Origin: a virus
Strand: one strand, 5' to 3'
IMG/VR virus record: IMGVR_UViG_3300025941_000112
Coordinates: 1-20,734 of that record
DNA: 20,734 nucleotides
The notes under the pieces were generated by a model. It did not search any database. It saw only the letters and a program-made list of their open reading frames with translations, and had not been told where the DNA came from. Shown here in pieces: positions 1,079 to 18,691 of the stretch (positions are counted from its first letter, which is position 1; every line of letters starts with the position of its first letter). The position numbers and the translations under genes were made by a program.

Positions 1079-1411
1079 TTAGGCTGATTTCACGTTGTCC
1101 GCGTGGCGGTCGCGACGCTTGGGGAAAGGGTCATCAGCCTTAGCTGCTTTTGGGACGGTCAATAGTTCCGCGACGGACAAGCCTAGTGCACGCGCCATAG
1201 CGTCCACAGCTACTAGACGTGGACTGCGCTCCCCTTTGAGGGCTGATCGAATAGTTTCTTTTCCGACGCCAGAGCGTTTGGCGAGCTCGGCGATCTGGTC
1301 GGTTTCGTTTTCCGCAGAGCGGAAAGCCAGCGGCATCAACTCGAGCAGTCGATCGCGTAGCAATCGGCCGATCACGTCGTTTGGCAGCGTCGGTGTCTTA
1401 GGTCGTCCCAT
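1079..1411 (-). CDS. HTH transcriptional repressor (cI-like, short)
   Basis: A 110-residue protein with an XRE-type helix-turn-helix in its middle: DQIAELAKRSGVGKETIRSAL followed by ERSPRLVAVDAMARALGLSVAELL (about residues 38-84). The start at 1411 (MGRPKTPTLP) is preferred to an in-frame ATG at 1489, which would place the operators inside the coding sequence. It is transcribed away from the cro-like gene with the paired operators between them, which is why I call it the lysogenic repressor. Unlike lambda cI it has no C-terminal S24 peptidase domain, only a basic charged tail, so RecA-stimulated self-cleavage is unlikely. It could also be a Cro-type factor with the roles of the two genes reversed. 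Confidence 0.8.
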   Translation of the reverse strand: MGRPKTPTLPNDVIGRLLRDRLLELMPLAFRSAENETDQIAELAKRSGVGKETIRSALKGERSPRLVAVDAMARALGLSVAELLTVPKAAKADDPFPKRRDRHADNVKSA

Positions 1412-1421
1412 CCATTGCGAC

Positions 1422-1450
1422 GATATAGCTGAAACCCTCCCGCTTTCGGG
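1422..1450 (-). promoter_or_regulatory. Possible weak promoter of the repressor gene
   Basis: On the minus strand TATATC (1422-1427) could be a -10 box, but the -35 position (1445-1450, CCCGAA) is poor and lies inside an operator. A weak promoter needing activation by repressor bound next door would fit a lambda pRM-like design. The predicted start, about 1415, lies only about 4 nt before the repressor ATG. Confidence 0.25.
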
Positions 1451-1452
1451 TT
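1437..1452. promoter_or_regulatory. Repressor operator, right pair, -35 site
   Basis: Sequence CTCCCG-CTTT-CGGGTT with the shared CCCG-N4-CGGG core. It overlaps the upstream edge of the TTGCGT -35 box of the rightward promoter and also the -35 position of the possible repressor promoter. Confidence 0.7.
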
Positions 1453-1479
1453 GCGTACTCCCGGAAACGGGGTTACAGT
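1451..1479 (+). promoter_or_regulatory. Rightward early promoter (pR-like)
   Basis: TTGCGT (1451-1456), a 17-bp spacer, then TACAGT (1474-1479). The spacer holds the operator at 1458-1473. The predicted start is about 1486, two bases before the ATG of the cro-like gene, which lacks a clear ribosome site. Aligned with the leftward promoter, the sequence from the upstream operator to the -10 box is nearly identical. Confidence 0.65.
1458..1473. promoter_or_regulatory. Repressor operator, right pair, promoter-spacer site
   Basis: Sequence CTCCCG-GAAA-CGGGGT, core CCCG-N4-CGGG, 21 bp from the first right-hand site. It sits in the spacer of the rightward promoter in the same place as the site at 633-648 in the leftward promoter. 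Confidence 0.7.
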
Positions 1480-1487
1480 CACGAGTC

Positions 1488-1694
1488 ATGGAATCCCTCT
1501 ACGACTTCGTTATGGACCGCCTTGAAAAAGCCAAAGGCGGCTGGCCCACAGTTGCGGAGGGCAGTGGAGTGTCCTTGCGCACCCTCGAAAAGATTGCACG
1601 GCGCGAGATCAAAGATCCGGGCGTCAGTCATATCGAAAAACTCGCTGGTTACTTCCGCGAGCAGCCGAAGAATCGGCGCGCTGCGGTGAATTAA
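1488..1694 (+). CDS. Cro-like HTH regulator (68 aa)
   Basis: A 68-residue basic protein whose central part WPTVAEGSGVSLRTLEKIARREIKDPGVSHIEKLAGYF has the spacing of a phage helix-turn-helix: VAEGSGVS as the first helix and turn, LRTLEKIA as the recognition helix. The start is ATG 1488 (MESLYDFVMD). The frame is open far upstream, but that part is only the antisense of the repressor gene. It is divergent from the repressor and the first gene of the rightward transcript, the position of lambda cro. No ribosome site is evident; the message probably starts within 2 nt of the ATG. It is expected to act at the CCCG-N4-CGGG sites, possibly in competition with the repressor. Confidence 0.75.
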   Translation: MESLYDFVMDRLEKAKGGWPTVAEGSGVSLRTLEKIARREIKDPGVSHIEKLAGYFREQPKNRRAAVN

Positions 1695-8325: not shown

Positions 8326-8610
8326 GTGGCCAAGGGTAAGAAATACGGCGGACGCTCCAAGGGGACGCCTAATAAGGCCACGCTGGCTGCCAGGGAGGCG
8401 ATCGGCAAGTTTGAGCGCGGTAATGCACACCGACTGCAGGGCTGGCTGGATGAGATTGCGAAGGACGAGGGACCTCTTGCCGCACTCAACTGCTTCACAG
8501 ACTTGCTTGAGTATCACGTGCCAAAGCTCGCGCGCACGGAGCATACCGGCAAGGATGGGGACGACTTGGCCATCAAGGTGATTGCCGCTCCTCATGATTC
8601 GAAGTTGTGA
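8326..8610 (+). CDS. terS: Probable terminase small subunit
   Basis: A 94-residue protein starting with GTG at 8326 (MAKGKKYGGR). Basic N-terminus KGKKYGGRSKGTPNKATLAA, then a helical part with RLQGWLDEIAKDEGPLAALNCFTDLLEYHVPKLAR and a polar tail. I know this pattern (GGRxKGTPNK ... LEYHxPKLART) from genes directly upstream of large terminase genes in podovirus-like phages, where they are annotated as small terminase or DNA-packaging proteins. The basic segment could recognise the packaging site, and the helical part could form the ring. It is somewhat shorter than classical small subunits. The stop overlaps the TerL GTG (GTGA at 8607-8610), so the two are translated together. Confidence 0.65.
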   Translation: MAKGKKYGGRSKGTPNKATLAAREAIGKFERGNAHRLQGWLDEIAKDEGPLAALNCFTDLLEYHVPKLARTEHTGKDGDDLAIKVIAAPHDSKL

Positions 8611-9920
8611 ACTTCACCGCCCGGCAGCTGCAAGCTCAAGCCCTGCTCGCAGGAGAGGCGACTCAGATCCTGCTCTATGGGGGTTCGCGCTCCGGCAAGA
8701 CATTCCTGCTCGTGCGTGCTGTGGTGATGCGAGCGCTCAAGGCTGCGCATTCACGTCACGCGATCCTGCGCTTTCGCTTCAATCACGTGAAAGCCGCGAT
8801 CGTGCACGACACTTTTCCGAAGGTCATGCAGGTGTGCTTCCCGCAGGTGACCTATCGGCTAGACAAGACCGATTGGTTCGCCGAGCTACCCAATGGGGCC
8901 ACGATCTGGTTTGGAGGATTGGACGACAAGGAGCGCACCGAAAAGATCTTGGGTCAGGAATACGTGACTATCTACCTGAACGAGTGCAGCCAGATTCCAC
9001 TGTCATCGCGTGCGATTGCGCTCACTCGCTTAGCTCAAGCGGTGATGCAGCATGTGGAGGGCGAGGACGACTCGCCACTCAAGCCGCGGATGTATTACGA
9101 CTGCAATCCACCGCCCAAGAATCACTGGTGCTATCTGCTGTTCGTTGCCAAGAAGGATCCGGGCACAGGACATCCGTTGACCCATCCCGAGAACTACGCT
9201 GCTCTGCAGATGAATCCTGCGGACAACGTGGAGAACCTGGCACCCGAGTATCTGGCCACTCTGGAGTCGCTCTCCGAGCGCATGCGCAAACGGTTCCTGA
9301 AAGGCGAGTTCGGCGAGGCCAATCCAAATGCGCTGTGGACCGAGGAGACTTTGGAGCGCTGGCGAATCCTGAATGCGGAGCTGCCAGATATGCAGCGCAT
9401 CGCGGTGGGGGTCGATCCTTCCGGCTCGGACGATGAAAACAACGAGGACAACGACGAGATCGGAATCGTGGTGTGCGGACTGGGACGTGATGGTCTCGGC
9501 TACGTACTCGAGGACTGCACCGTCAAGGCCGGCCCATTGACATGGGGCCGGATCGCGACCAATGCATATGACCGACATGAGGCAGATGTGGTGGTTGGGG
9601 AAGTTAACTTCGGTGGCGCAATGGTCTCGCACGTGATTCAGACCGCTCGTCCGCGAACACCGTTTAAAGCGGTCACCGCATCACGAGGCAAGGCAGTGCG
9701 CGCCGAGCCCATCTCTGCTCTGTATGAATCAGGCAAGATTCGGCTTGTGGGTGAGTTCCGCGAGCTCGAGGGGGAGCTGCTGTCTTTCTCGACGCAAGGG
9801 TACATTGGCGAGGGCTCTCCAAACCGCGCTGATGCCATGATCTGGGCATGTTACGAACTCTTCCCAGGATTGGTGCGACGTGAACAGAAAGCGCAACGCG
9901 AGCGGTATGCGATCACCTGA
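8607..9920 (+). CDS. terL: Terminase large subunit
   Basis: A 437-residue DNA-packaging motor protein. The N-terminal ATPase has Walker A GGSRSGKT (25-32) and a Walker B-like VTIYLNE ending at E126, with YYDCNPPP (163-170) as the probable coupling motif. The C-terminal RNase H-like nuclease shows VGVDPSG (D270), VVVGEVNFGG (E332) and SPNRADAMIWA (D409), the three expected acidic positions. It cuts concatemers and pumps DNA through the portal into the procapsid. The GTG start overlaps the small-subunit gene. The last residues, QRERYAIT, recur at the end of the next small protein. Length and all motifs fit an intact enzyme. Confidence 0.95.
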   Translation: MNFTARQLQAQALLAGEATQILLYGGSRSGKTFLLVRAVVMRALKAAHSRHAILRFRFNHVKAAIVHDTFPKVMQVCFPQVTYRLDKTDWFAELPNGATIWFGGLDDKERTEKILGQEYVTIYLNECSQIPLSSRAIALTRLAQAVMQHVEGEDDSPLKPRMYYDCNPPPKNHWCYLLFVAKKDPGTGHPLTHPENYAALQMNPADNVENLAPEYLATLESLSERMRKRFLKGEFGEANPNALWTEETLERWRILNAELPDMQRIAVGVDPSGSDDENNEDNDEIGIVVCGLGRDGLGYVLEDCTVKAGPLTWGRIATNAYDRHEADVVVGEVNFGGAMVSHVIQTARPRTPFKAVTASRGKAVRAEPISALYESGKIRLVGEFRELEGELLSFSTQGYIGEGSPNRADAMIWACYELFPGLVRREQKAQRERYAIT

Positions 9921-10065
9921 GCGGACCTACAGGTTGCAGGATGATCTGGCCGAGTTGCTACTGATGGCGGGTCCTCAAGGGTACGCCAAAGCCACAGCCC
10001 GTATGTTCGCCCCCGGTGGCAAGTACAACCGCGGCGCCAAGAAACAGCGCTACGCCATCACCTGA
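9907..10065 (+). CDS. Small protein sharing the TerL C-terminal tail (52 aa)
   Basis: A 52-residue basic protein from ATG 9907 (MRSPERTYRL), overlapping the TerL end by 14 nt in another frame; a GTG at 9880 with AGGA upstream would add 9 residues. A short helix LQDDLAELLLMAG is followed by FAPGGKYNRGAKKQRYAIT. The last residues, QRYAIT, match the TerL tail QRERYAIT, and the codons are similar but not identical. It may bind the same partner as the TerL tail, for example the portal. Function unknown. Confidence 0.6.
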   Translation: MRSPERTYRLQDDLAELLLMAGPQGYAKATARMFAPGGKYNRGAKKQRYAIT

Positions 10066-10066
10066 T

Positions 10067-10079
10067 TTGATTCCGTCGC
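10067..10079 (+). repeat. Intergenic motif copy 1 (TTGATTCCGTC)
   Basis: TTGATTCCGTCGC begins 35 nt before the ATG of the Ala/Gly-rich protein gene. The 13-mer is identical to copy 3 at 18054-18066, which also lies exactly 35 nt before an ATG, and shares 11 nt with copy 2 at 13597. AGGCT occurs at the same offset downstream in copies 1 and 3. Confidence 0.7.
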
Positions 10080-10101
10080 GCCCACGACAGAGGCTCGAAG
10101 C

Positions 10102-10524
10102 ATGAACATCGGACCACGATATCAGCGCGGGTATGCAGCCATCCCCTGGATTGCATCGCTGTTCACTACGGCGGGCGCAGCTGGTGCTACAGGAGCCGCT
10201 GCCGGCGGTGCAGCGGCTGCGGGTGGAGCAGCCGCCGCAGGGGCCGGAGCGGCTGCCGCAGGAGGGGCTGCAGCGGGTGCAGGATTAGGCGCTGCGGCCG
10301 CCGCCAGTGCGGCTGCGGTGGGAGCTGGGGTGTTGGCGAATAAGTTGCTCGCGCCCAAAGCGCCCAGCATTGCCGGCATGGCACCTCCGACGGTCGACCA
10401 GGCCAAACAGGCGCAACAGGCCACGGATCGCATTCGGTTGCGCAAAGGAGTTCTGGCCAACATATACGGGGCGGGAACCGGTGGCACGCCCTCGATCGGG
10501 ACCAAGAGCCTGCTCGGCCAATGA
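10102..10524 (+). CDS. Ala/Gly-rich virion-associated protein (140 aa)
   Basis: A 140-residue protein whose residues about 19-80 are almost only Ala and Gly, with a few Val and Leu, forming a long low-complexity hydrophobic stretch that could insert into a membrane. The C-terminal part (VDQAKQAQQATDRIRLRKG ... GTKSLLGQ) is polar; the closing (T/R)KSLLG-type motif is one I know from small proteins encoded near portal genes in many phages. Proteins of this kind are often annotated as internal or injected virion proteins, but that is inferred here. The ribosome site is GAGG about 8 nt before the ATG. Its stop overlaps the portal start (ATGA). Confidence 0.65.
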   Translation: MNIGPRYQRGYAAIPWIASLFTTAGAAGATGAAAGGAAAAGGAAAAGAGAAAAGGAAAGAGLGAAAAASAAAVGAGVLANKLLAPKAPSIAGMAPPTVDQAKQAQQATDRIRLRKGVLANIYGAGTGGTPSIGTKSLLGQ

Positions 10525-12164
10525 GCGAGGCTGACTGGTTCTTCAAGCAACAGGCGAAGCTCGCCGAGAACCGCAACCAGTGGGATGCGTGGTGGCAACA
10601 GATCGCCTACCGAGTCATGCCCTCACAAGCGACCTTCCAGGTTGATGACGTCGAGGGCACCAAGCGCATGGAGCGGCTGTTCACCGGTAAACCCGTGATC
10701 AGCAATGAACGCTTCGGGGCGGTGCTGGATGACCTGCTCACTCCACGTACGCAGGAATGGCATGGGTTGACGCCCCAGGACGAAGACGAGCTGGGGGATG
10801 ATCAGGACGTCAAGGTATACCTTGAGCGGTTGAACAAACTTTTGTTTGCGTTGCGCTATCGTCCCGCGGCCAACTTCGCCGCTCAGAAGTCCCAGGGCTA
10901 CCTGTCCGTGGGTGCATTCGGGAACTCGTGTCTATTCGTGGATGAGGACATCGGCAAAGGCCCCCGCTACAAACACCTGTTCCTCAAGGAGCTGTTCTGG
11001 GCCGAGAATCACGCCGGCATCATTGACACGATGTATCGCAAGTATTCTCTGTCGGCTCACCAGGCGGTGCAGTGCGCCAAGCTCTACGGGTGGAGCGCAT
11101 TACCCGAAGCCATCACGAAGGCCGCACAGGACGAACCGTTCAAGAAATTCGACTTTCTGCACTGCGTGAAGCCGAATCAGGAGTTGATCCCGAGTCGCAA
11201 AGACTATCGTGGGATGCCGTGGAGCTCGTACTACGTGAGCTACGAGGGCAAGACGGTCCTGCAGGAAGCGGGCTATCACGCGTGGCCGTTCGCGATCGGA
11301 CGCTATCTGCTGGCGCCGAATGAGACCTATGCGCGGTCCCCTGCCATGGCCGCGTGGGGCGCGATCCTGACCTTGAACGAGGAGAAGAAGACCGTTCTAC
11401 GGGCGGGACAGAAAGCCGTAGACCCACCCTTGCTGCTGACCGAGGATGGGGCGCTGGAACCCTTCAACATGCGCTCTGCTGCATTGAATCATGGCGCGCT
11501 GAACAGTGAAGGCGTGCCGCTTGTGCAGCCGTTGCAGGGCGGGGAGAACATACCACTGGGACTCGAGTTGATGGCGCTTGAGCAGACCGAGATCGAGGAT
11601 TCGTTCTTGGTCACGCTGTTCAAGGTGCTGACCGACAATCCGCAGATGACCGCGACACAGGTTCTGGAGATCGCGCAGCAGAAGGCCACTTTGCTGGCAC
11701 CGGTGATGGGCCGGCAGCACTCGGAAGATTTGGGCCCGCTGATTGGGCGTGAGATCGATATCGCCTCGCGCATGAGCCAGAACGCCTGGATTCTGGAGGA
11801 GATGCCGGATAGCTTGCGCGAGCGGGGAGGGCAGTACCAGATCGAATACCGTTCACCCTTGGCGCGTGCCATGCGTGCTCAGGACGGGGTTGCGATCATG
11901 CGCACGTTCGAAGCCTTGCCCGCTGCCCAAGCCCTGGACCCGCACTCCACCATGGTTATCGATGTGCCGGCATCCGTGCGCGAACTTGCCGAAATCAACG
12001 GGGTACCGGCCAAACTGATTCGCGACAAGAAGACCTACGAGCAGATGGTGCAGCTGGCGCAGCAGCAGACGGATCTGCAGCAAGCCGCGGTTGCAGCACC
12101 GGGGATCTCCCAGGCCGCGCTCAATGCCACGAAAGCGGATCAGATCCGGGCAGGGCAGGCTTGA
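10521..12164 (+). CDS. Portal (head-tail connecting) protein
   Basis: A 547-residue portal of the podovirus head-to-tail connector family. Twelve copies are expected to form the ring at the packaging vertex that binds the terminase and later the tail tube. Family-like features: N-terminal helical part with WDAWWQQIAYRVMPSQATF (about 21-39), VISNERFGAVLDDLLTPRTQEWHGL, the ARSPAMAAWGAILTLNEEKK wing/stem transition (about 272-291), and a long C-terminal helical region with QQ-rich repeats (QMVQLAQQQTDLQQAA) that probably form the barrel. Length is normal for the family. The start overlaps the upstream stop in an ATGA, and its own stop overlaps a TTG start downstream. Gene order TerL, small genes, portal, scaffold, capsid supports the call. 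Confidence 0.92.
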   Translation: MSEADWFFKQQAKLAENRNQWDAWWQQIAYRVMPSQATFQVDDVEGTKRMERLFTGKPVISNERFGAVLDDLLTPRTQEWHGLTPQDEDELGDDQDVKVYLERLNKLLFALRYRPAANFAAQKSQGYLSVGAFGNSCLFVDEDIGKGPRYKHLFLKELFWAENHAGIIDTMYRKYSLSAHQAVQCAKLYGWSALPEAITKAAQDEPFKKFDFLHCVKPNQELIPSRKDYRGMPWSSYYVSYEGKTVLQEAGYHAWPFAIGRYLLAPNETYARSPAMAAWGAILTLNEEKKTVLRAGQKAVDPPLLLTEDGALEPFNMRSAALNHGALNSEGVPLVQPLQGGENIPLGLELMALEQTEIEDSFLVTLFKVLTDNPQMTATQVLEIAQQKATLLAPVMGRQHSEDLGPLIGREIDIASRMSQNAWILEEMPDSLRERGGQYQIEYRSPLARAMRAQDGVAIMRTFEALPAAQALDPHSTMVIDVPASVRELAEINGVPAKLIRDKKTYEQMVQLAQQQTDLQQAAVAAPGISQAALNATKADQIRAGQA

Positions 12165-12436
12165 GCCTCGTCAGCGATCAGGGCATCTACCTGCCCGCCA
12201 AAGCCTTGGGCGACCAGTTGGAGCAGGAGATTCGTCTGGCTCTCAACCATTACTGGCCTACGGGGTGGACGCTGGATATGGTCAAGAAGTACTGCCAGCG
12301 CGTGCGGTTGGACAGCGACGAGGCCGAGACCTTCTATTGCGATGGCGTACCCTTGCTGCGCATCTACCCGGTGAAGTCTGAAGTCGTCGGCAAAAAGCTA
12401 CGCATGACGCAACAGGTCGATAGGCTCTACCGGTGA
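12161..12436 (+). CDS. Small protein between portal and Bbp19-like gene (91 aa)
   Basis: A 91-residue protein with a TTG start at 12161 inside the portal stop (TTGA); no nearby ATG would leave a sensible product. Contains NHYWPTGWTLDMVKKYCQRVRL (helical) and a short beta part LLRIYPVKSEVVGKKLRMTQ. It looks like a small alpha/beta fold with no family I can name. It is coupled to both neighbours (its own stop overlaps a GTG start), so it is probably made in step with the portal and may be a head-completion or assembly factor. Confidence 0.65.
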   Translation: MSLVSDQGIYLPAKALGDQLEQEIRLALNHYWPTGWTLDMVKKYCQRVRLDSDEAETFYCDGVPLLRIYPVKSEVVGKKLRMTQQVDRLYR

Positions 12437-12720
12437 GCCTCTTCGAGCGCATCAAGCGCAAGCGGCTCGCCTACCTCAATACCCTGTGCGTGGAGGGGAA
12501 GCCGCACCCGGAAGCCGCGATTATGTTGCGTGACCTCAAGCGCTTCTGCGGCATCAACAAAGGCGGCATTGTGGTGAGCCCGATCTTGCGTATGGTGGAC
12601 TCTCACGCGAGCGTGTACCGCGCTGGAATGCGGGACGTATACTTGCGCATCGCGAAGATGATCGACCTCGACGAAACCGACCTTGGGGAATCCAATGACG
12701 ACCGAAGCAGCAGCGAGTAG
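12433..12720 (+). CDS. Bbp19-like phage protein (95 aa)
   Basis: A 95-residue protein with a GTG start at 12433 (GTGA overlap with the gene before). The pattern YLNTLCVEGKPHPEAAIMLRDLKRFCG ... GGIVVSPILRMVDSHASVYRAGMRDVYLRIAKMIDLDE fits the Bbp19 family named after a Bordetella phage BPP-1 gene, whose members contain F-hydrophobic-x-G, LRDLxxFC and GRRExxLRI-type segments. The role is not established; the gene is regularly found between portal and scaffold genes. Its 3' end overlaps the scaffold gene by 26 nt. It supports assigning this phage to a BPP-1-related lineage. Confidence 0.65.
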   Translation: MSLFERIKRKRLAYLNTLCVEGKPHPEAAIMLRDLKRFCGINKGGIVVSPILRMVDSHASVYRAGMRDVYLRIAKMIDLDETDLGESNDDRSSSE

Positions 12721-13495
12721 TGAGGCAGCAGGAAGCACCTCTGGCGAAGCCGCGAACCAACCGTGGTATCCGGACACCGTCAAGGACTATGTCACCAACA
12801 AGGGCTGGAAGGAATCAGCGGACGTCATCACGAGCTATCAGAATCTCGAGAAGCTCATTGGTGAGGACAAGGCGGGCCGTACCGTCATCCTGCCGAAAGA
12901 CGAGAAGGACACCGAGGGCATCAAAACCTTCCGGGCCAAACTCGGCGTTCCCGAAGCGCCCGACAAGTACGAACTGCCCGCGCCTCCCGGAGAAGGTGGG
13001 GCGAATCTCATCAAGGAAGCCTCAGCCTGGTTCCACGAAGCCGGCATCCCGAAATCGGCAGCGCAAGCCATCACCTCCAAATGGAACGCGCACATCGAAG
13101 GGCTGATCAGGGCGCAGGAGACCCAGGCGCAGACCGAATCTCACGCTCAGCTGGAGAAACTCAAGGGTGAGTGGGGCCAGGAGTTCGACGCCAAGGCCGA
13201 ATACGCGCGACGCTTCCTGAAAGCCGCTGGCTGGGACGATGCCAAGATGGCGACCTACGAGCGCACCTTTGGCACCGCCACCATGCTCAAGGACTTCTAC
13301 CAGTGGGGATCGAAGGTTGGGGAGCCGGGCTTCTCGGCAGCCGATAGCGCGAGCAGTTCCTTCAACATCACCAAAGAGGCGGTACAGCGGCAGTTCAAGG
13401 AGCTGCAGGATGCCCGTATCGCTAACCGCATCACGGAGAAGGAGTTCCACGCCAAGATGGCGGTGCTCGGACCGCAGATGGAGGCGGCTCGTTGA
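12695..13495 (+). CDS. Capsid scaffolding protein
   Basis: A 266-residue acidic, helical protein from ATG 12695 (MTTEAAASSE), chosen over a TTG four codons upstream because GGGGA is 6 nt before it. The N-terminus is Ala/Glu/Ser rich and disordered. It is followed by WYPDTVKDYVTNKGWKESAD and VITSYQNLEKLIGEDKAGRT, then a PxxPDKYELP segment and long helices with ESHAQLEKLKGEWGQEFDAK. The order SYxNLEKLIG ... AGR-hydrophobic-P ... KLGxPxxPDKYEL is typical of scaffolding proteins upstream of major capsid genes in this lineage. It guides procapsid assembly and leaves before or during packaging. The C-terminal ITEKEFHAKMAVLG probably contacts the capsid protein. Confidence 0.85.
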   Translation: MTTEAAASSEAAGSTSGEAANQPWYPDTVKDYVTNKGWKESADVITSYQNLEKLIGEDKAGRTVILPKDEKDTEGIKTFRAKLGVPEAPDKYELPAPPGEGGANLIKEASAWFHEAGIPKSAAQAITSKWNAHIEGLIRAQETQAQTESHAQLEKLKGEWGQEFDAKAEYARRFLKAAGWDDAKMATYERTFGTATMLKDFYQWGSKVGEPGFSAADSASSSFNITKEAVQRQFKELQDARIANRITEKEFHAKMAVLGPQMEAAR

Positions 13496-13596
13496 AGGAG
13501 CGGCTGAAGGTCGTTCTGTCGCTTACGTTGCAGGCCGTCATCGGGTTGGCCTTCATTTACTCGCTGATTGTGTTCCTGTTCTCCAATCACAAGTAG
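13492..13596 (+). CDS. Very small single-pass membrane protein (34 aa)
   Basis: A 34-codon frame starting with TTG at 13492 inside the scaffold stop (TTGA overlap), encoding MKERLKVVLS LTLQAVIGLA and ending FLFSNHK. A charged N-terminus (KERLK) is followed by one hydrophobic helix at about residues 7-30. GAAGGAG, which could help initiation, lies inside the gene rather than before the start. The stop-start overlap and the clean membrane-helix composition argue against chance. It could be a small inner-membrane protein affecting lysis or assembly; nothing in the sequence tells which. Confidence 0.5.
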   Translation: MKERLKVVLSLTLQAVIGLAFIYSLIVFLFSNHK

Positions 13597-13607
13597 TTGA
13601 TTCCGTC
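13597..13607 (+). repeat. Intergenic motif copy 2 (TTGATTCCGTC)
   Basis: Directly follows the TAG of the 34-residue membrane protein and opens the 177-nt leader of the major capsid gene. The 11-mer is identical to those at 10067 and 18054, but here the ATG is 177 nt away. The GAGGCTCG that copy 1 shows before its ATG recurs at 13763-13770, so the two halves appear split by an inserted structured segment. Confidence 0.7.
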
Positions 13608-13724
13608 CCCGTCCTTATGCATCGTCAGCTTGAGCCGACAAGGTTACGCGCCCCGGCTGACCGGTTGAAAGCAACTCGCCCGCGCTGAGTGTCATCAGCG
13701 AAGGATCTGGCCCCTCGCGGATAA

Positions 13725-13767
13725 GCCTCTTCCGAAAACGGTTCCCACACGCGTTTTCGCATGAGGC
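13725..13767 (+). promoter_or_regulatory. Leader hairpin covering the capsid ribosome site
   Basis: Pairs GCCTC (13725-13729) with GAGGC (13763-13767) and CGAAAACG (13733-13740) with CGTTTTCG (13752-13759), separated by a symmetric 3 x 3 internal loop and closed by an 11-nt loop. The outer strand contains GAGG, the only ribosome-site-like sequence before the capsid ATG at 13774. Another pairing, 13624-13629 with 13656-13661 (GTCAGC/GCTGAC), lies upstream. The helix could hold back initiation, stabilise the 5' end of a processed message, or be part of a terminator or antiterminator; no T tract follows it. Confidence 0.55.
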
Positions 13768-13773
13768 TCGGCC

Positions 13774-14682
13774 ATGTCCGTCAACATTCCCAGTTGGTAC
13801 GTCAGCACCTACAACCAGAACATCGTGCAGCTGCTGCAACAGAAGCAGTCACGCTTGCGTCAGGCTTGCATGCCTGCGACGGGTGTCGGCGAGCAGATGA
13901 GTCCGGTCGATCAGATCGGCTCCATCGAAATGCAGGACGTCACGACCCGCTTCGCCCCGATGGGACGGGTGGATGCCGCGGTTGACCGGCGCTGGGCGCG
14001 TCCGAACGATGCGGACCTACCGCAGCTGATCGACACGTTCGACAAGCTCAAGATCATCACCGACCCGCAGGGGATCTACGTCACCAATGCGGTCTCGGCG
14101 GCCAATCGCAAGTACGACGATGTGATCGGCAACGCCTTCTTCGCCTCTGCCGCCACCGGTAAGACGGGCGCCACCTCGACCGCGTTCGATACCACCAACC
14201 AGACGGTGAGTGTGAATGTGGGCGGCACGGATTCACCGTTGAATGTCGCGAAGCTGGAGAAAGGACGCACGATCTTTCTCGCCAACGAAGCGGACTTGGA
14301 GAACGACGACATCTTTGTCTGCATCACCTCCAAGGATCATCTGGCGCTGATGAGCGAGATTCAGGTGCTGAGCCTGGATTTCAATGAGCGTCCGGTCTAC
14401 AACAGTCGGGGCCTGATCACCTCATTCCGCGGCTTCAATTTCATCCACTCGGAGCGCCCGTGGGCCACCACGGAAGCCACCGACGATGCCGCCGGAAGCT
14501 CCCGCCAAGTCCCCATGTGGCTCAAGAGCGGCATGCACGTGGTCACCTGGAATGACATCAATACCTCGGTCAGCGTGCGCAACGACATCCAGGGCGAGCC
14601 CTACCAGGTGTACGTGAAGATGAGCGTGGGCGCGACGCGCAACGAGGAAAAGAAAGTCGTCAAGATTTGGTGCGGTAGCTGA
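13774..14682 (+). CDS. Major capsid protein
   Basis: A 302-residue coat protein of the HK97-type fold as found in BPP-1-like podoviruses. Recognisable parts: N-terminal helix MSVNIPSWYVSTYNQNIVQL, then RLRQACMPATG, the MDV-type segment IEMQDVTTRFAPMGRVDAAVDRRWARP, a long central helix region NAVSAANRKYDDVIGNAFFASA, the variable loop GKTGATSTAFDTTNQTVSVN, and the closing PYQVYVKMSVGATRNEEKKV and VKIWCGS. It follows the scaffold gene and precedes the cement-like gene, as expected. No N-terminal prohead protease domain is present and no protease gene is nearby, fitting a separate scaffold system. Its 177-nt untranslated leader is the longest gap in the head gene cluster and may tune its high expression. 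Confidence 0.9.
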   Translation: MSVNIPSWYVSTYNQNIVQLLQQKQSRLRQACMPATGVGEQMSPVDQIGSIEMQDVTTRFAPMGRVDAAVDRRWARPNDADLPQLIDTFDKLKIITDPQGIYVTNAVSAANRKYDDVIGNAFFASAATGKTGATSTAFDTTNQTVSVNVGGTDSPLNVAKLEKGRTIFLANEADLENDDIFVCITSKDHLALMSEIQVLSLDFNERPVYNSRGLITSFRGFNFIHSERPWATTEATDDAAGSSRQVPMWLKSGMHVVTWNDINTSVSVRNDIQGEPYQVYVKMSVGATRNEEKKVVKIWCGS

Positions 14683-14718
14683 TCTGAAATCGCTTCCGTA
14701 TCCACTTTGGAGTGAAAC

Positions 14719-15243
14719 ATGGCAATTGATCTGACTCTCAAGTCCACGGCTATCGCGAACCGCGAAGCGACCCCGCGCGTGGCCAACAACCCGGGTGCCG
14801 GTGGTTCGGGCCGTAACTTCCGGGTATATGGCTACATTGCCTCGGTCACTGCATCGCTCTCGGCAACCTCGGTCATCCGGCTGGTGGAAGTACCGAGTAA
14901 TGCGATTGTGACGTCTGTGAAGGTCTCTTCGGGCGCGCAGACCGCGGGCAAGTTCAACATCGGGGTGTATCGCAAACCCCAGGATGGTGGGTTGGTCGCG
15001 TTCACCTCATCCGACTCCTTCTTCACGACCGACCTGGACTGCGCTGCCGCAGTAGTGGATCAGGAATGCGTCATGAAGGCCACCTCCGGCAATACGCTCG
15101 TGAAGCGCAACCAGCCGCTGTGGCAGGCGATCGGCATGGCCGCGGATCCCAAGACGGGGCTGGACATCTGCGCCACCGTGCACACGACAGATGTCACCAC
15201 GGGCACCGGTGCATTGGGCGCCGTGGTCGATTACACCCTGTAA
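14719..15243 (+). CDS. Capsid cement / decoration-like protein (174 aa)
   Basis: A 174-residue beta-rich protein directly after the major capsid gene, preceded by TTGGAGTG. In BPP-1 the gene in the same place makes a jelly-roll cement protein that locks the capsid; position, size and beta content fit that role here. Features: a Gly-rich N-terminal arm (PGAGGSGRNFR), LVEVPSNAIVTSVKV (55-69), FNIGVYRKP (79-87), PLWQAIGMAADP (133-144) and a closing VVDYTL. The pattern from VPSNA to the C-terminus is repeated in the last 130 residues of the 995-residue fibre (VPSNARIVTLEA, VWELLGLTADP), so the two share a domain. Three cysteines (C108, C117, C151) could form a disulfide. Confidence 0.7.
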   Translation: MAIDLTLKSTAIANREATPRVANNPGAGGSGRNFRVYGYIASVTASLSATSVIRLVEVPSNAIVTSVKVSSGAQTAGKFNIGVYRKPQDGGLVAFTSSDSFFTTDLDCAAAVVDQECVMKATSGNTLVKRNQPLWQAIGMAADPKTGLDICATVHTTDVTTGTGALGAVVDYTL

Positions 15244-15252
15244 GGAGCGCGC

Positions 15253-15447
15253 ATGGCCTCCCGATTCTATGGTGCGAACGTGGGGGCGATGCAGCCCACG
15301 GACGTGACGGAATCCGCCTCCACGACCTCGAGCGCCGTGGAGATCCAGATCGATCTCACCAAGACCACGAGCCGCATCGCAGTCCTGCAGGCCCTGGAAG
15401 CGCTGACGAACTACCTGCGCGTCAAAGAAAACGACCCGATCGGGTAA
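15253..15447 (+). CDS. Small phage protein after the cement-like gene (64 aa)
   Basis: A 64-residue protein with a good ribosome site (GGAG, 15244-15247) before ATG 15253. The pattern MASRFYGANVGAMQPTDVTESASTTSSAVEIQIDLTKTTSRIAVLQALEAL matches small proteins I know from phage head gene clusters (MASRFYG-N ... Vxx-DLTK ... VLxALExIxNxI), which have no established role. A short beta part is followed by a C-terminal helix. It is translated between the cement-like gene and another small beta-rich gene, with gaps of only 3-9 nt, so a minor virion or head-completion role is likely. Confidence 0.7.
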   Translation: MASRFYGANVGAMQPTDVTESASTTSSAVEIQIDLTKTTSRIAVLQALEALTNYLRVKENDPIG

Positions 15448-15450
15448 GCC

Positions 15451-15744
15451 ATGAGTTCCACCTCGGGCGGCAACCTCATCACCAACGGAGCGGCGTCGAG
15501 CAACAAAGTTGCGTGGCAGGGGGGAATGGGTGTCATGACCGTTGTGGGCACCTTCAGCGGCGCGACCATCAAACTACAGTTCGTGGGGCCTGACGGCTCG
15601 ACCCTAGTTGATGCGGGCGCGGGAACCACGTTCACGGCCGCAGGGGCGGGTGTTTTCTACCTGCCGCCATGTCCCATTCAAGTGACCATCACTGGCGGAC
15701 CTCCTTCGGGTATCTACGCAAGCGTCGCTCGCGTACCGAGCTAG
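15451..15744 (+). CDS. Small beta-rich phage protein (97 aa)
   Basis: A 97-residue protein starting MSSTSGGNLITNGAASSNKV, almost all predicted beta strand, with TVVGTFSGATIKLQFVGPDGSTLVDAGAGTTFTAAGAGVFYLPP and a PIQVTITGG turn. The LQF-x-GPDG and GVFYLPPxxI segments are of a type often encoded beside phage capsid and decoration genes. I would guess a small jelly-roll or Ig-like virion protein; function is not known. It begins 3 nt after the previous stop and ends 2 nt before the next ATG, so the three genes form one translational unit. Confidence 0.65.
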   Translation: MSSTSGGNLITNGAASSNKVAWQGGMGVMTVVGTFSGATIKLQFVGPDGSTLVDAGAGTTFTAAGAGVFYLPPCPIQVTITGGPPSGIYASVARVPS

Positions 15745-15746
15745 TG

Positions 15747-17285
15747 ATGCGCCGCTTACTCGCACTATTGTTGGTTTGTCTGGCGGCCACAAGTTCTGCC
15801 GACGTGACCGGTCCTGTGTCCCCGCTCGGTGGGGGTACCATTTCCAGCACCACGGCCGTACTTCCGGTCGGCACGTCTTTGTATCCGGTCTTTCAGAATC
15901 AGGCCGGTTCCACGATCAACGCCACGAATGGCTCTGCCACGATTACGTGCGTTATGGGCTGCTCCAGTTTCTACGTCGGGGCACTGATCTTTCAAGCGAC
16001 TGCATTCCCCAGCAACGCCACCGTCAGAGATATCAGCGGTAGTCCCAGCATCGTCATGAGCAAGAACGCCTCGGCGGATGTGACCGCTGGTGTCGCCTCT
16101 ATCGGCTACAACAAGTTCGATACCACGAGTGCACTCCTTACCAACAATCTGGCCGCGCAAAATATCTTCGCCGGTCAGGCTTCTCAGAACAGCTCCAACT
16201 GGTCCGATGAGTGGCTGCCGACCTATTGCAACCGTGCGGCTGTCTGCGCGCTAGGGCTGCCGGGCAAACAAGATACTGTATTGTCTGGACTTCGTGTCAG
16301 CGACAATACGGGGGCCTCTGCGGTCGGTTCCATCAACATGACCGCACTGTCCATCAACGACAATACGGGTACTTCTCACGCACTCTGGGGGCTGTATCTA
16401 CAGACGTTGGTCTCTGCAGGTGCTGGAACGAGTTCTCTTCAGTTCGGCAGCGAAAGCGACATCTCGAACCAGAATACGGCTGTCAATGTCGATCCATTCG
16501 GTTACAACGTCCTGAGCGCGACCGTCGCTCAGCGGTTGGGGTGCGGAGCGGGGGCATTGAGTCAAACCTCGTGCGCCGCCGCTATGGACATCGTCCCCAA
16601 CGGGGCGACGTTTCGCACGGGTATCAACATTTCGAGCACCGCACTTGATGCCTCCGTACTCACTCATCCCTCGGCCTTCTCGATGCCCTCAGGGACTAAC
16701 GGCTATTCGCTCTCGTGGTACCGCCAGACCGGCTACTCGGCGCCCAGCTGGCAACAGTACGCAACGAACACGACAACGGATGGCAACTTCATATCCATGG
16801 GAGATACGGCCCTTCTGATTGGTGGCGCCGCTCGGAACTGGGCCAGTATAGGTAAAACCGCCATTACCTTTGGAAATACCACGGACAATCCAACCTTTAC
16901 TGTGTCGGGCAGTGGGGCCATCAGTCTAAATGGTGGCGGGGCGACGACGACGCAGGCGCTGAATGCCAGTTACCTCAATGTTACTTCTTCAGGAACTGTG
17001 CCGACTACGGGTCTCTATCGCCCTTCCGCCAGCATTCTTGGGCTCAGTTCCAACTCCGCATTAGCCGCGCAGTTTGACGCCTCACAGAACTTCATTCCCT
17101 CGGCAGCCGTGGGTCTCAAGATGCTTACGGTAGCAACGCTGCCAACTTGCAACGCGGGCGCGAAGGGCTTCATGTACGCCGTCTCGGATGCCGCAGCGAC
17201 TCCGGTCTATAACGCAACTGTGGCTGCCGGTGGTTCTGTATCCATTCCGGTTTACTGCAACGGCACGAACTGGACCAATCACTGA
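15747..17285 (+). CDS. Fibre-like protein with a Sec signal peptide (512 aa)
   Basis: A 512-residue protein from ATG 15747. The first 18 residues are a textbook signal peptide: MRR, then LLALLLVCLAA, then TSSA before DV, a good signal peptidase I site; no lipobox. The mature part is rich in Ser, Thr, Asn, Gly and beta strand (SDNTGAS and NDNTGTS repeats, FTVSGSGAISLNGGG), like a fibre shaft. Its C-terminus (LPTCNAGAKGFMYAVSDA ... IPVYCNGTNW) is a type I know from phage fibre tips. All eight mature cysteines form four close or domain-sized pairs: C68/C72, C161/C167, C266/C276, C468/C504, which fits disulfides made in the periplasm. It may be an exported prophage product acting at the cell surface, or a virion fibre with an unusual leader. 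Confidence 0.65.
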   Translation: MRRLLALLLVCLAATSSADVTGPVSPLGGGTISSTTAVLPVGTSLYPVFQNQAGSTINATNGSATITCVMGCSSFYVGALIFQATAFPSNATVRDISGSPSIVMSKNASADVTAGVASIGYNKFDTTSALLTNNLAAQNIFAGQASQNSSNWSDEWLPTYCNRAAVCALGLPGKQDTVLSGLRVSDNTGASAVGSINMTALSINDNTGTSHALWGLYLQTLVSAGAGTSSLQFGSESDISNQNTAVNVDPFGYNVLSATVAQRLGCGAGALSQTSCAAAMDIVPNGATFRTGINISSTALDASVLTHPSAFSMPSGTNGYSLSWYRQTGYSAPSWQQYATNTTTDGNFISMGDTALLIGGAARNWASIGKTAITFGNTTDNPTFTVSGSGAISLNGGGATTTQALNASYLNVTSSGTVPTTGLYRPSASILGLSSNSALAAQFDASQNFIPSAAVGLKMLTVATLPTCNAGAKGFMYAVSDAAATPVYNATVAAGGSVSIPVYCNGTNWTNH

Positions 17286-17336
17286 TTGCGGCAGCGCGTA
17301 TTGAAACGCGATTGCCTTGGAGTAGTCTCCGGGCCA

Positions 17337-17987
17337 ATGAGCGCCGTGTCGATTCCTTCGGATCCCTATCTTTATTTCGGGAACATGGACCCGAGATCGC
17401 AACAGCACAAGATCCCCAACTTTGTGGGGCTCGCGCTGAAGCCGAACAATCCTCGTGAGATAAAACACAACGCGCTAGATCCGCTGCCGTTCGCGAATGG
17501 CACGATTCGGAAGATCCAATCGGAGGATGTTTTCGAGCATCTGCCGAGGGCCGCCGTTCCGGGTGTGCTTAATGACGTCTACCGCGTGCTTGTTACTGGC
17601 GGGCTGTTTCGCCTGAGTATGCCGGACTATCGCAGTCCGCTGCTGAGGCGGCGTAGCTACTACGACGACCGCGGTCGAGTCATGGGCGATGCGATGATGG
17701 GCGGTACGACGGTTTACGATCCCAAGACCACCACCGTCATATCGAAGTTCTGGAGCGACGGCAACGCGCACCTGTGGTTTCCGACCTATGAGCAGGTGCT
17801 GGAGATCATTGTCCAATCGAATTTGCGACTCTGCTCCAAGATCGATTTCTATCAGTACTTCATCGACGACGAGCGGTTTGTATGCAACCCGTATCCGCTC
17901 AATGAGATGTATGTGGGTCGCTCGCCTCCCTTCGACATGCGAGCGGGTGGCAAGCCCATTTCGATTATCGTGGACTTCATAAAGTAG
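17337..17987 (+). CDS. Methyltransferase-like protein with degenerate SAM loop (216 aa)
   Basis: A 216-residue protein from ATG 17337 (MSAVSIPSDP); in-frame TTG codons at 17286 and 17301 are alternatives, and none has a strong ribosome site. Residues about 41-98 follow class I methyltransferases of the Methyltransf_11 type: HNALDPLPFANGTIRKIQSEDVFEHLP, then VLNDVYRVLVTGGLFRLSMPDY. The N-terminal position where LHLGCG is expected reads LYFGNMDP, so the glycine-rich SAM loop is lost or changed. The C-terminal half (YDPKTTTVISKFWSDGNAHLWFPTYEQV) resembles sugar or glycan methyltransferases. Placed between the exported fibre-like gene and the tail tube genes, it looks like an added accessory gene; it may modify a surface glycan, or be an inactive binding protein. 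Confidence 0.6.
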   Translation: MSAVSIPSDPYLYFGNMDPRSQQHKIPNFVGLALKPNNPREIKHNALDPLPFANGTIRKIQSEDVFEHLPRAAVPGVLNDVYRVLVTGGLFRLSMPDYRSPLLRRRSYYDDRGRVMGDAMMGGTTVYDPKTTTVISKFWSDGNAHLWFPTYEQVLEIIVQSNLRLCSKIDFYQYFIDDERFVCNPYPLNEMYVGRSPPFDMRAGGKPISIIVDFIK

Positions 17988-18002
17988 CCCCTCGCATCTG
18001 AC

Positions 18003-18035
18003 CTCCCTGCCGGTCTCTAGGCGCATAGCAGGGAG
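18003..18035. other. Strong hairpin between methyltransferase-like and tail genes
   Basis: A perfect 8-bp stem, CTCCCTGC (18003-18010) with GCAGGGAG (18028-18035), around a 17-nt loop. It begins 15 nt after the TAG of the methyltransferase-like gene and lies 19 nt before motif copy 3. No T tract follows on either strand, so it is not a classical rho-independent terminator. It may protect or mark a transcript end or a processing site. Confidence 0.5.
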
Positions 18036-18053
18036 CCGCAGAAACACCAAGCA

Positions 18054-18066
18054 TTGATTCCGTCGC
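18054..18066 (+). repeat. Intergenic motif copy 3 (TTGATTCCGTC)
   Basis: TTGATTCCGTCGC begins exactly 35 nt before the ATG of the tail tubular protein gene and is identical over 13 nt to the copy at 10067, which has the same spacing to its ATG. CAAAGGCT at 18075-18082 aligns with CAGAGGCT at 10088-10095. Confidence 0.7.
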
Positions 18067-18088
18067 TGGCCTATCAAAGGCTTAGGCG

Positions 18089-18691
18089 ATGACCACCGAA
18101 GTCTCCATCGCCAACCGGGCGCTCACGCTCCTCGGTTCGGATCTCATCATTGCGCTCACGGACGACACCAACCGCGCCCGGGTGATCAGCGCGAACTACG
18201 CCCCCATCCGCGATGCGGAACTCGCGCGCCACCGCTGGCGGTTCAGCATTCAGCGGGTCTCGCTGGCGGCTTTATCCGCGACTCCAGACTCGGACTACGC
18301 GCGACAGTTCCAAGTCCCTGGCGACTTCCTGAAGCTCATCGAGGGAGGCGATCTCGTCTCCCATGCGGATTTGACAGATTACCGCACCGGCTCGTGCACC
18401 TTGTGGTCCCGGGAAGGAGACAAGATCCTCACCAACCTCCCGGCTCCTCTGCATATCCGCTACATCGCGCGCATCACGGATGCGTCGCTGTTCGATGCGG
18501 CGTTTGCCGAAAGTCTCTCAGCCCGGCTCGCGGATGAATGCTGCGAGCGCATCACACAGTCAGACTCGAAACGCCAGATCTGTATGGCAGCGTACAAGCG
18601 TGCGATATCGGAGGCGAAACTCGCCAACGCACTCGAGGTTGCGTCCGAATCCGTGGCTGATGGGGAATGGGTGATGGCGAGGGCGCGGTGA
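18089..18691 (+). CDS. Tail tubular protein A-like (gp11-type adaptor)
   Basis: A 200-residue helical protein starting MTTEVSIANRALTLLGSDLI. The opening IANRALxLLG ... ALTDDTNRARVISANYAPIRDAELARHRWRFSIQR is typical of the T7 gp11 / tail tubular protein A family, which forms the ring joining the portal to the tail nozzle in podoviruses. Other family-like parts are QFQVPGDFLKLIEGG, RYIARITDASLFDAAFAESLSARLADECCERIT and a polar C-terminal helix. Length is normal. It is followed with a GTGA overlap by the nozzle-like gene, as gp11 is followed by gp12 in T7. The gap before it contains a hairpin and the repeated TTGATTCCGTC motif, perhaps the start of a separate transcription or processing unit. 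Confidence 0.88.
   Translation: MTTEVSIANRALTLLGSDLIIALTDDTNRARVISANYAPIRDAELARHRWRFSIQRVSLAALSATPDSDYARQFQVPGDFLKLIEGGDLVSHADLTDYRTGSCTLWSREGDKILTNLPAPLHIRYIARITDASLFDAAFAESLSARLADECCERITQSDSKRQICMAAYKRAISEAKLANALEVASESVADGEWVMARAR

Follow-up and report, generated by a model that had tools for sequence, protein, structure and literature searches.

Canonical sigma70 promoters have the form TTGACA-N17-TATAAT, in which positions 2 (A) and 6 (T) of the -10 hexamer are the most conserved. In the cI gene of phage lambda, the start codon is located at the transcription start. The lambda cI mRNA is leaderless (PMC9031893). The late promoters of phage 7-11, a phiEco32-like phage, are bipartite (GTAAtg-16-aCTA) and are recognized by a phage sigma factor together with the host core enzyme (PMC8948821).

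The locus analyzed here lies in a virus record of 20,734 bases, probably a fragment, the whole of which is referred to as the window. Its promoters share with canonical sigma70 promoters a -35 box (here TTGATT), a 17-bp spacer and the -10 A and T, but CYGTC is conserved after the -35 box, G replaces T at the first -10 position, and a C follows the -10 box. As in phage 7-11, bipartite promoters that would be served by host core RNA polymerase are dispersed before virion genes; their boxes are different, however, and whereas 7-11 encodes its own sigma factor (PMC8948821), none was recognized in relatives of the window phage. The start codons of two of the genes coincide with the predicted transcription starts, as in lambda cI, although virion genes and several promoters are concerned here and the leaderless status is a prediction. 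Riboswitches and autoregulatory operators resemble the leader of the capsid gene in consisting of a compact multi-helix domain followed by a hairpin over the ribosome site, but the capsid leader has no match in Rfam 15 and precedes a phage capsid gene. We found no description of the promoter or the leader in the open-licence literature; the promoter class appears to be known in kind but unusual in consensus, and the leader appears to be undescribed in these sources.

We consider it highly probable that the repeated element TTGATTCCGTC is the -35 region of a virion promoter used by host RNA polymerase with a sigma70-family factor; its first and third copies should give leaderless transcripts, and capsid synthesis is probably subject to translational control as well. 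The features on which this reading is built are collected in Table 1.

Table 1. Promoters, genes and RNA structures of the virion gene cluster (window coordinates; scores are from the position-weight scan).
Feature	Position	Strand	Description
Promoter 1	10067..10095	+	Extended -35 TTGATTCCGTC 10067-10077, -10 GAGGCT 10090-10095; 24.6 bits
Promoter 1, predicted start	~10102	+	ATG of the Ala/Gly-rich gene heading the portal operon
Ala/Gly-rich gene behind promoter 1	10102..10524	+	Followed by portal gene 10521-12164
Promoter 2	13597..13625	+	Extended -35 TTGATTCCGTC 13597-13607, -10 CATCGT 13620-13625; 21.1 bits
Promoter 2, predicted start	~13632	+	Upstream of the capsid leader
Capsid mRNA leader, structured core	13634..13731	+	P1 and P4 with C/ACAA-type internal loops, P2, P3
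Hairpin GCCTCTTCCGAAAACG/CGTTTTCGCATGAGGC	13725..13767	+	Covers the capsid ribosome site GAGG 13763-13766; identical in L004
Major capsid protein gene	13774..14682	+	PHROG 3437
Promoter 3	18054..18082	+	Extended -35 TTGATTCCGTC 18054-18064, -10 AAGGCT 18077-18082; 19.8 bits
Promoter 3, predicted start	~18089	+	ATG of the tail tubular A-like gene
Tail tubular A-like gene	18089..18691	+	PHROG 394

Three copies of a conserved element lie between virion genes

An exact search of the whole record located TTGATTCCGTC at three positions, all on the plus strand, with no fourth exact copy on either strand; the reversed pattern was also absent. The three plus-strand intergenic copies reported in the first-pass annotation were thus recovered, and the scan confined the motif to these three gaps, with no copy in coding sequence. 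Copies 1 and 3 each precede an ATG by 35 nt, as that annotation had stated, and copy 2 is 177 nt from the capsid ATG. The genes around the motif were assigned by PHROGs to the terminase large subunit, the portal (head-tail adaptor), the capsid and two tail proteins. In relatives, the small genes that follow this promoter share the C-terminal part of the Ala/Gly-rich protein.

A three-fold 11-mer is by itself unremarkable, being present in 29-39% of order-1 to order-3 Markov simulations. Because only 2.2% of the segment 3270-20734 is non-coding, the chance that all three copies would fall into gaps is about 1e-5. Further relatives were gathered through capsid and tail-protein searches and their contigs were then inspected. 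In L004 (capsid identity 95%), the motif is found in the same three gaps, the promoter 1 sequence is identical, and promoter 2 is at the same position, as it also is in L005. L005/G002 (capsid identity 65%) carries TTGACTCTGTC at the same place 5' of the capsid gene and TTGATTCTGTCGCT 37 nt upstream of the tail tubular gene, and more distant phages have TTGAYTCYGT[C/T] ahead of the corresponding genes. The repeated sequence is a real, conserved element.

Short homologies of this type could instead mark recombination joints of exchangeable virion modules, as copies 1 and 3 adjoin segments that are replaced in L004 (the terminase and the stretch upstream of 18014) and the motif surroundings stay 87-96% identical to L004. 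This explanation predicts neither a second block at a fixed distance (see below) nor a strand bias, however, and copy 2 sits inside a collinear conserved stretch; we give it only a very slim chance.

A second box is positioned 17 bp downstream of the first

The relatives share the two-part consensus TTGATTCYGTC-N12-GATRTTC. Nineteen sites on eight contigs were selected on the ten leading bases alone (TTGAYTCYGT), and in 19 of 19 a hexamer whose second base is A and whose sixth is T starts exactly at +23 nt; such a hexamer occurs at no other offset from 14 to 44 in more than five of the 19, and at +23 in only 4 of 35 one-mismatch sites, although sites within one genome or in close relatives are not fully independent. 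The resulting spacer is 17 bp in every case, within the 16-18 bp that sigma70-type promoters require, and the bases between the two blocks show no conservation. The second box is mostly GATATT or GATGTT in the relatives, as opposed to the three window boxes listed in Table 1, and its first position is G in 20 of 24 sites.

These findings alter the initial description of the locus in several respects. The statement that no sigma70 -10 box fits downstream was misleading, since a degenerate -10-like box with A2 and T6 follows TTGATT by 17 bp in 19/19 sites. The CAxAGGCT block noticed at a common offset behind copies 1 and 3 is real and corresponds to the -10 box of the window, but the CATCGT block at the same offset behind copy 2 had been missed. 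A partial match at 14693 received no support, as no site above 9 bits was found there in a leave-one-genome-out scan. The window -10 boxes agree with the sigma70 consensus at 2-3 of 6 positions, a poor overall match, and a scan of 9900-18200 with standard sigma70 and terminator consensus sequences flagged nothing at the sites.

The box-to-box spacing is the same whether the start codon is 35 or ~177 nt away, which bears on the proposal that the motif acts in translation or mRNA processing at a set distance of 35 nt from start codons. The equal distances at copies 1 and 3 and the AGAGG/AAAGG sequences near their ATGs would fit such an element. The distance to the start codon is nevertheless 177 nt at the capsid gene of the window and 46-56 nt in G003, G007 and G011 with the box spacing unchanged, and processing or translation readings are disfavored because the spacing is kept at capsid copies whose start codon is at least ~170 nt off. 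We regard them as very unlikely. From the alternatives offered in the first-pass annotation, that of a phage-specific late promoter is best supported: the architecture points to a sigma70-shaped promoter, whose lateness is presumed.

Virion-gene sites are the top matches in near-complete relatives

Position-weight scans were performed with the scanned genome left out of the matrix. In each near-complete relative, the virion-gene sites were the top matches: G003 and G004 each contain four strong sites, and G005 contains three together with a weak site (12.1 bits) before the tail fibre gene. (G003-G005, at 38.7-44.4 kb, were called near-complete by judgement; genes cross the contig ends in G004 and G005.) The sites stand before the small head gene of the portal operon and the capsid, tail tubular A and tail fibre-like genes. 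In the window, which ends ahead of any tail fibre gene of that place, the three promoters score highest and the next best match has 12.2 bits. L166 contributes two additional sites. A DNA-pattern scan of IMG/VR with both boxes returned family members and chance matches, many of the latter within one conserved coding region of contigs with a GC content of 0.42-0.48.

Dispersed identical motifs ahead of virion genes are a T7-like pattern, and a promoter for a single-subunit phage RNA polymerase was considered. Two blocks with 12 unconserved bases between them do not suit a T7-type promoter, and no gene for such a polymerase (RNA_pol) was detected in the three near-complete relatives under conditions in which the T7 positive control was detected at 1e-109. 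A T7-type reader is extremely unlikely.

A search of five relatives for Sigma70_r2, r4 and r4_2 gave nothing over the cut-off, although very divergent factors could escape it, and the sub-threshold region-4 matches that were examined were an HNH protein and a Cro/CI-type HTH protein. G003 carries an integrase gene, and G003-G005 encode CI/Cro-type HTH proteins. When eight contigs were compared all against all by BLAST, the shared genes were mostly structural, and no non-structural gene was common to all promoter carriers. Because a T7-type polymerase, a recognizable sigma factor and a shared non-structural gene are all missing from these sets, the most likely reader is the host polymerase, working with a presumed sigma70-family factor. 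The promoter reading is supported by the distant phages L019, L181 and L190, in which TTGACA-N17 promoters are located upstream of the same capsid leader; apart from these few sites, a generic sigma70 search upstream of 44 leaders gave mostly chance-level results.

Two features, the conserved CYGTC and the G that opens the -10 box, are atypical of plain sigma70, which fits them poorly. Their conservation beyond the needs of sigma70 could mean that the same promoter depends on a phage or alternative sigma factor, or on sigma70 aided by an activator at CYGTC; such a dependence would account for late expression of the genes. The bipartite late promoter of phage 7-11 (PMC8948821) is a precedent for a phage sigma on host core enzyme. 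On the other side stand the empty sigma-family searches, which very divergent regulators could have evaded, the identity of the sub-threshold matches and the lack of a common non-structural gene in the promoter-bearing phages. We view such a dependence as possible, at odds well short of even.

Start codons coincide with predicted transcription starts

In copies 1 and 3, only 6 nt separate the -10 box from the ATG, and their mRNAs should for this reason be leaderless, as judged from box positions. The constant 35 nt at these copies would then follow from the start codon sitting at the predicted transcription start. Fourteen non-capsid sites have the start codon 6-9 nt past the -10 box with no Shine-Dalgarno sequence in between, and eight others have it 17-27 nt past the box, seven of these with a Shine-Dalgarno sequence. 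AGAGG/AAAGG is present inside some of the -10 boxes of the window clade, including those of copies 1 and 3, and could be a Shine-Dalgarno sequence for read-through mRNAs; because it may serve such transcripts, leaderless initiation stays a prediction.

The predicted capsid transcript begins with a covarying structured RNA

The transcript from promoter 2 would begin at the foot of a structured leader. The covariance-model match in the window (88.1 bits, E 1.6e-14, with the window itself among the ten seeds) starts no more than 2-3 nt from the predicted transcription start. In the fold, an ACAA/C internal loop interrupts P1, P2 carries a GAAAG loop, P3 follows, and P4 contains the second internal loop, C/ACAA. 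The same internal-loop module is present in both P1 and P4, where the hairpin loops lie at opposite ends, and the two modules are possibly twin binding sites.

In the ten seeds, 14 of 21 pairs have changed on both sides, giving a covariation score of 0.523 compared with 0.155 for shuffled controls. Among 55 distinct leaders, 96.6% of cells are paired and the score is 0.657, as against 0.147 ± 0.011 when shuffled and at most 0.094 when slid, in an alignment that was fitted to the model, which favors its score. The inner pairs of P4 are invariant and so give no covariation signal. RNAalifold yielded no structure from 45 leaders aligned by sequence alone, because loop lengths vary; a structure assigned by hand to the ten seeds, combined with the covariance model, succeeded. 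An Rfam 15 search matched the leader to no family and gave one unrelated, snoRNA-like sub-threshold hit elsewhere.

Of 58 loci retrieved solely by way of the tail protein, 19 contained the leader. The capsid gene lies 3' of the leader in nearly all of the loci that were checked, with at most ~50-60 nt to its start codon. One exception, L169:4050-4147 (minus strand), has the leader ahead of a tail-fibre-like gene. The leader is far commoner than the promoter and is also found in phages without TTGATTCCGTC; the loci are L165-L228, L043, L045-L067, L163, L164 and L229. It is present as well in Nitrosovibrio sp. Nv4, an alphaproteobacterial MAG and the deposited uncultured phage genome MW202898. 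The covariance model detected no leader in the pelagiphages HTVC010P, HTVC203P, Skadi-4 and Baldr, in Alteromonas phage ZP6 or in MW202510. Among 274 genomes of the Nitrosovibrio class, two capsid relatives were found, one being Nitrosovibrio itself and the other lacking a leader match. The leader is a strongly covarying, widespread structured RNA.

Downstream of P4, a hairpin pairs the ribosome site with a conserved CCCUUC strand (GCCUCUUC in the window). The GAGGCTCG sequence that the first-pass annotation had observed ahead of the capsid ATG does recur there, but it constitutes the ribosome-site arm of this hairpin and lies outside the promoter. In the window, the predicted pairing of the ribosome site is 1.00, of which 0.70 is with the CCTCTTC strand; across 44 leaders it averages 0.93, with 0.62 to the CCCUUC strand, values to be read against the readiness with which GC-rich sequence pairs. 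Because the last hairpin of the leader covers the ribosome-binding site and would mask it, a further, translational layer of control over capsid synthesis is probable, and the leader probably controls the amount of capsid protein made.

A tentative model for capsid control

In the combined model, host RNA polymerase with a sigma70-family factor would recognize the two boxes and express the virion genes, with initiation just past each -10 box and late timing both presumed. Transcripts from copies 1 and 3 would begin at or beside the ATG. Somewhat short of an even chance, in our estimate, is the further proposal that the leader represents a large undescribed RNA class that switches capsid translation and is paired with a promoter set making leaderless virion mRNAs. 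The GCCCUUC strand would have two alternative partners, P4, whose domain it would close (GGC:GCC, GAAG:CUUC), and the ribosome site, which it would mask; capsid synthesis would be switched by a ligand or virion protein that binds the two C/ACAA modules. In the predicted folds, the alternative GAAG:CUUC pairing reaches only 0.01, so the switch is a hypothesis drawn from conservation.

These results provide a legible map of how virion genes would be controlled in podovirus-like phages that have come to light almost exclusively in metagenomes, with one promoter class in about four copies per phage and no T7-type polymerase or recognizable phage sigma factor. If the model is true, the capsid leader is a new RNA family with members in dozens of phage contigs as well as in two bacterial genome assemblies, and it would make the balance of capsid to scaffold and portal in such phages directly testable.

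Other features of the window

The window terminase large subunit gene (8607-9920) is swapped relative to L004 (4861-6348): its product is 21% identical to the G001/L004 counterpart and 81% identical to that of G004, whereas its neighbors are 97-98% identical to G001/L004. A possible 34-aa hydrophobic protein with a TTG start is encoded at 13492-13596, in L004 as well; the reading frame overlaps the end of the putative scaffold gene (PHROG 3742, 12683-13495), and its stop codon touches promoter 2. Upstream of promoter 3, positions 18003-18035 contain an eight-base inverted repeat, CTCCCTGC...GCAGGGAG, with no T run, which is not kept as such in L004. Palindrome-like repeats (CCCGGAAACGGG and CCCGAAAGCGGG / CCCGCTTTCGGG) at 628-676 and 1437-1476 flank an HTH_3 regulator gene (1079-1489, minus strand) and are likely repressor operators.
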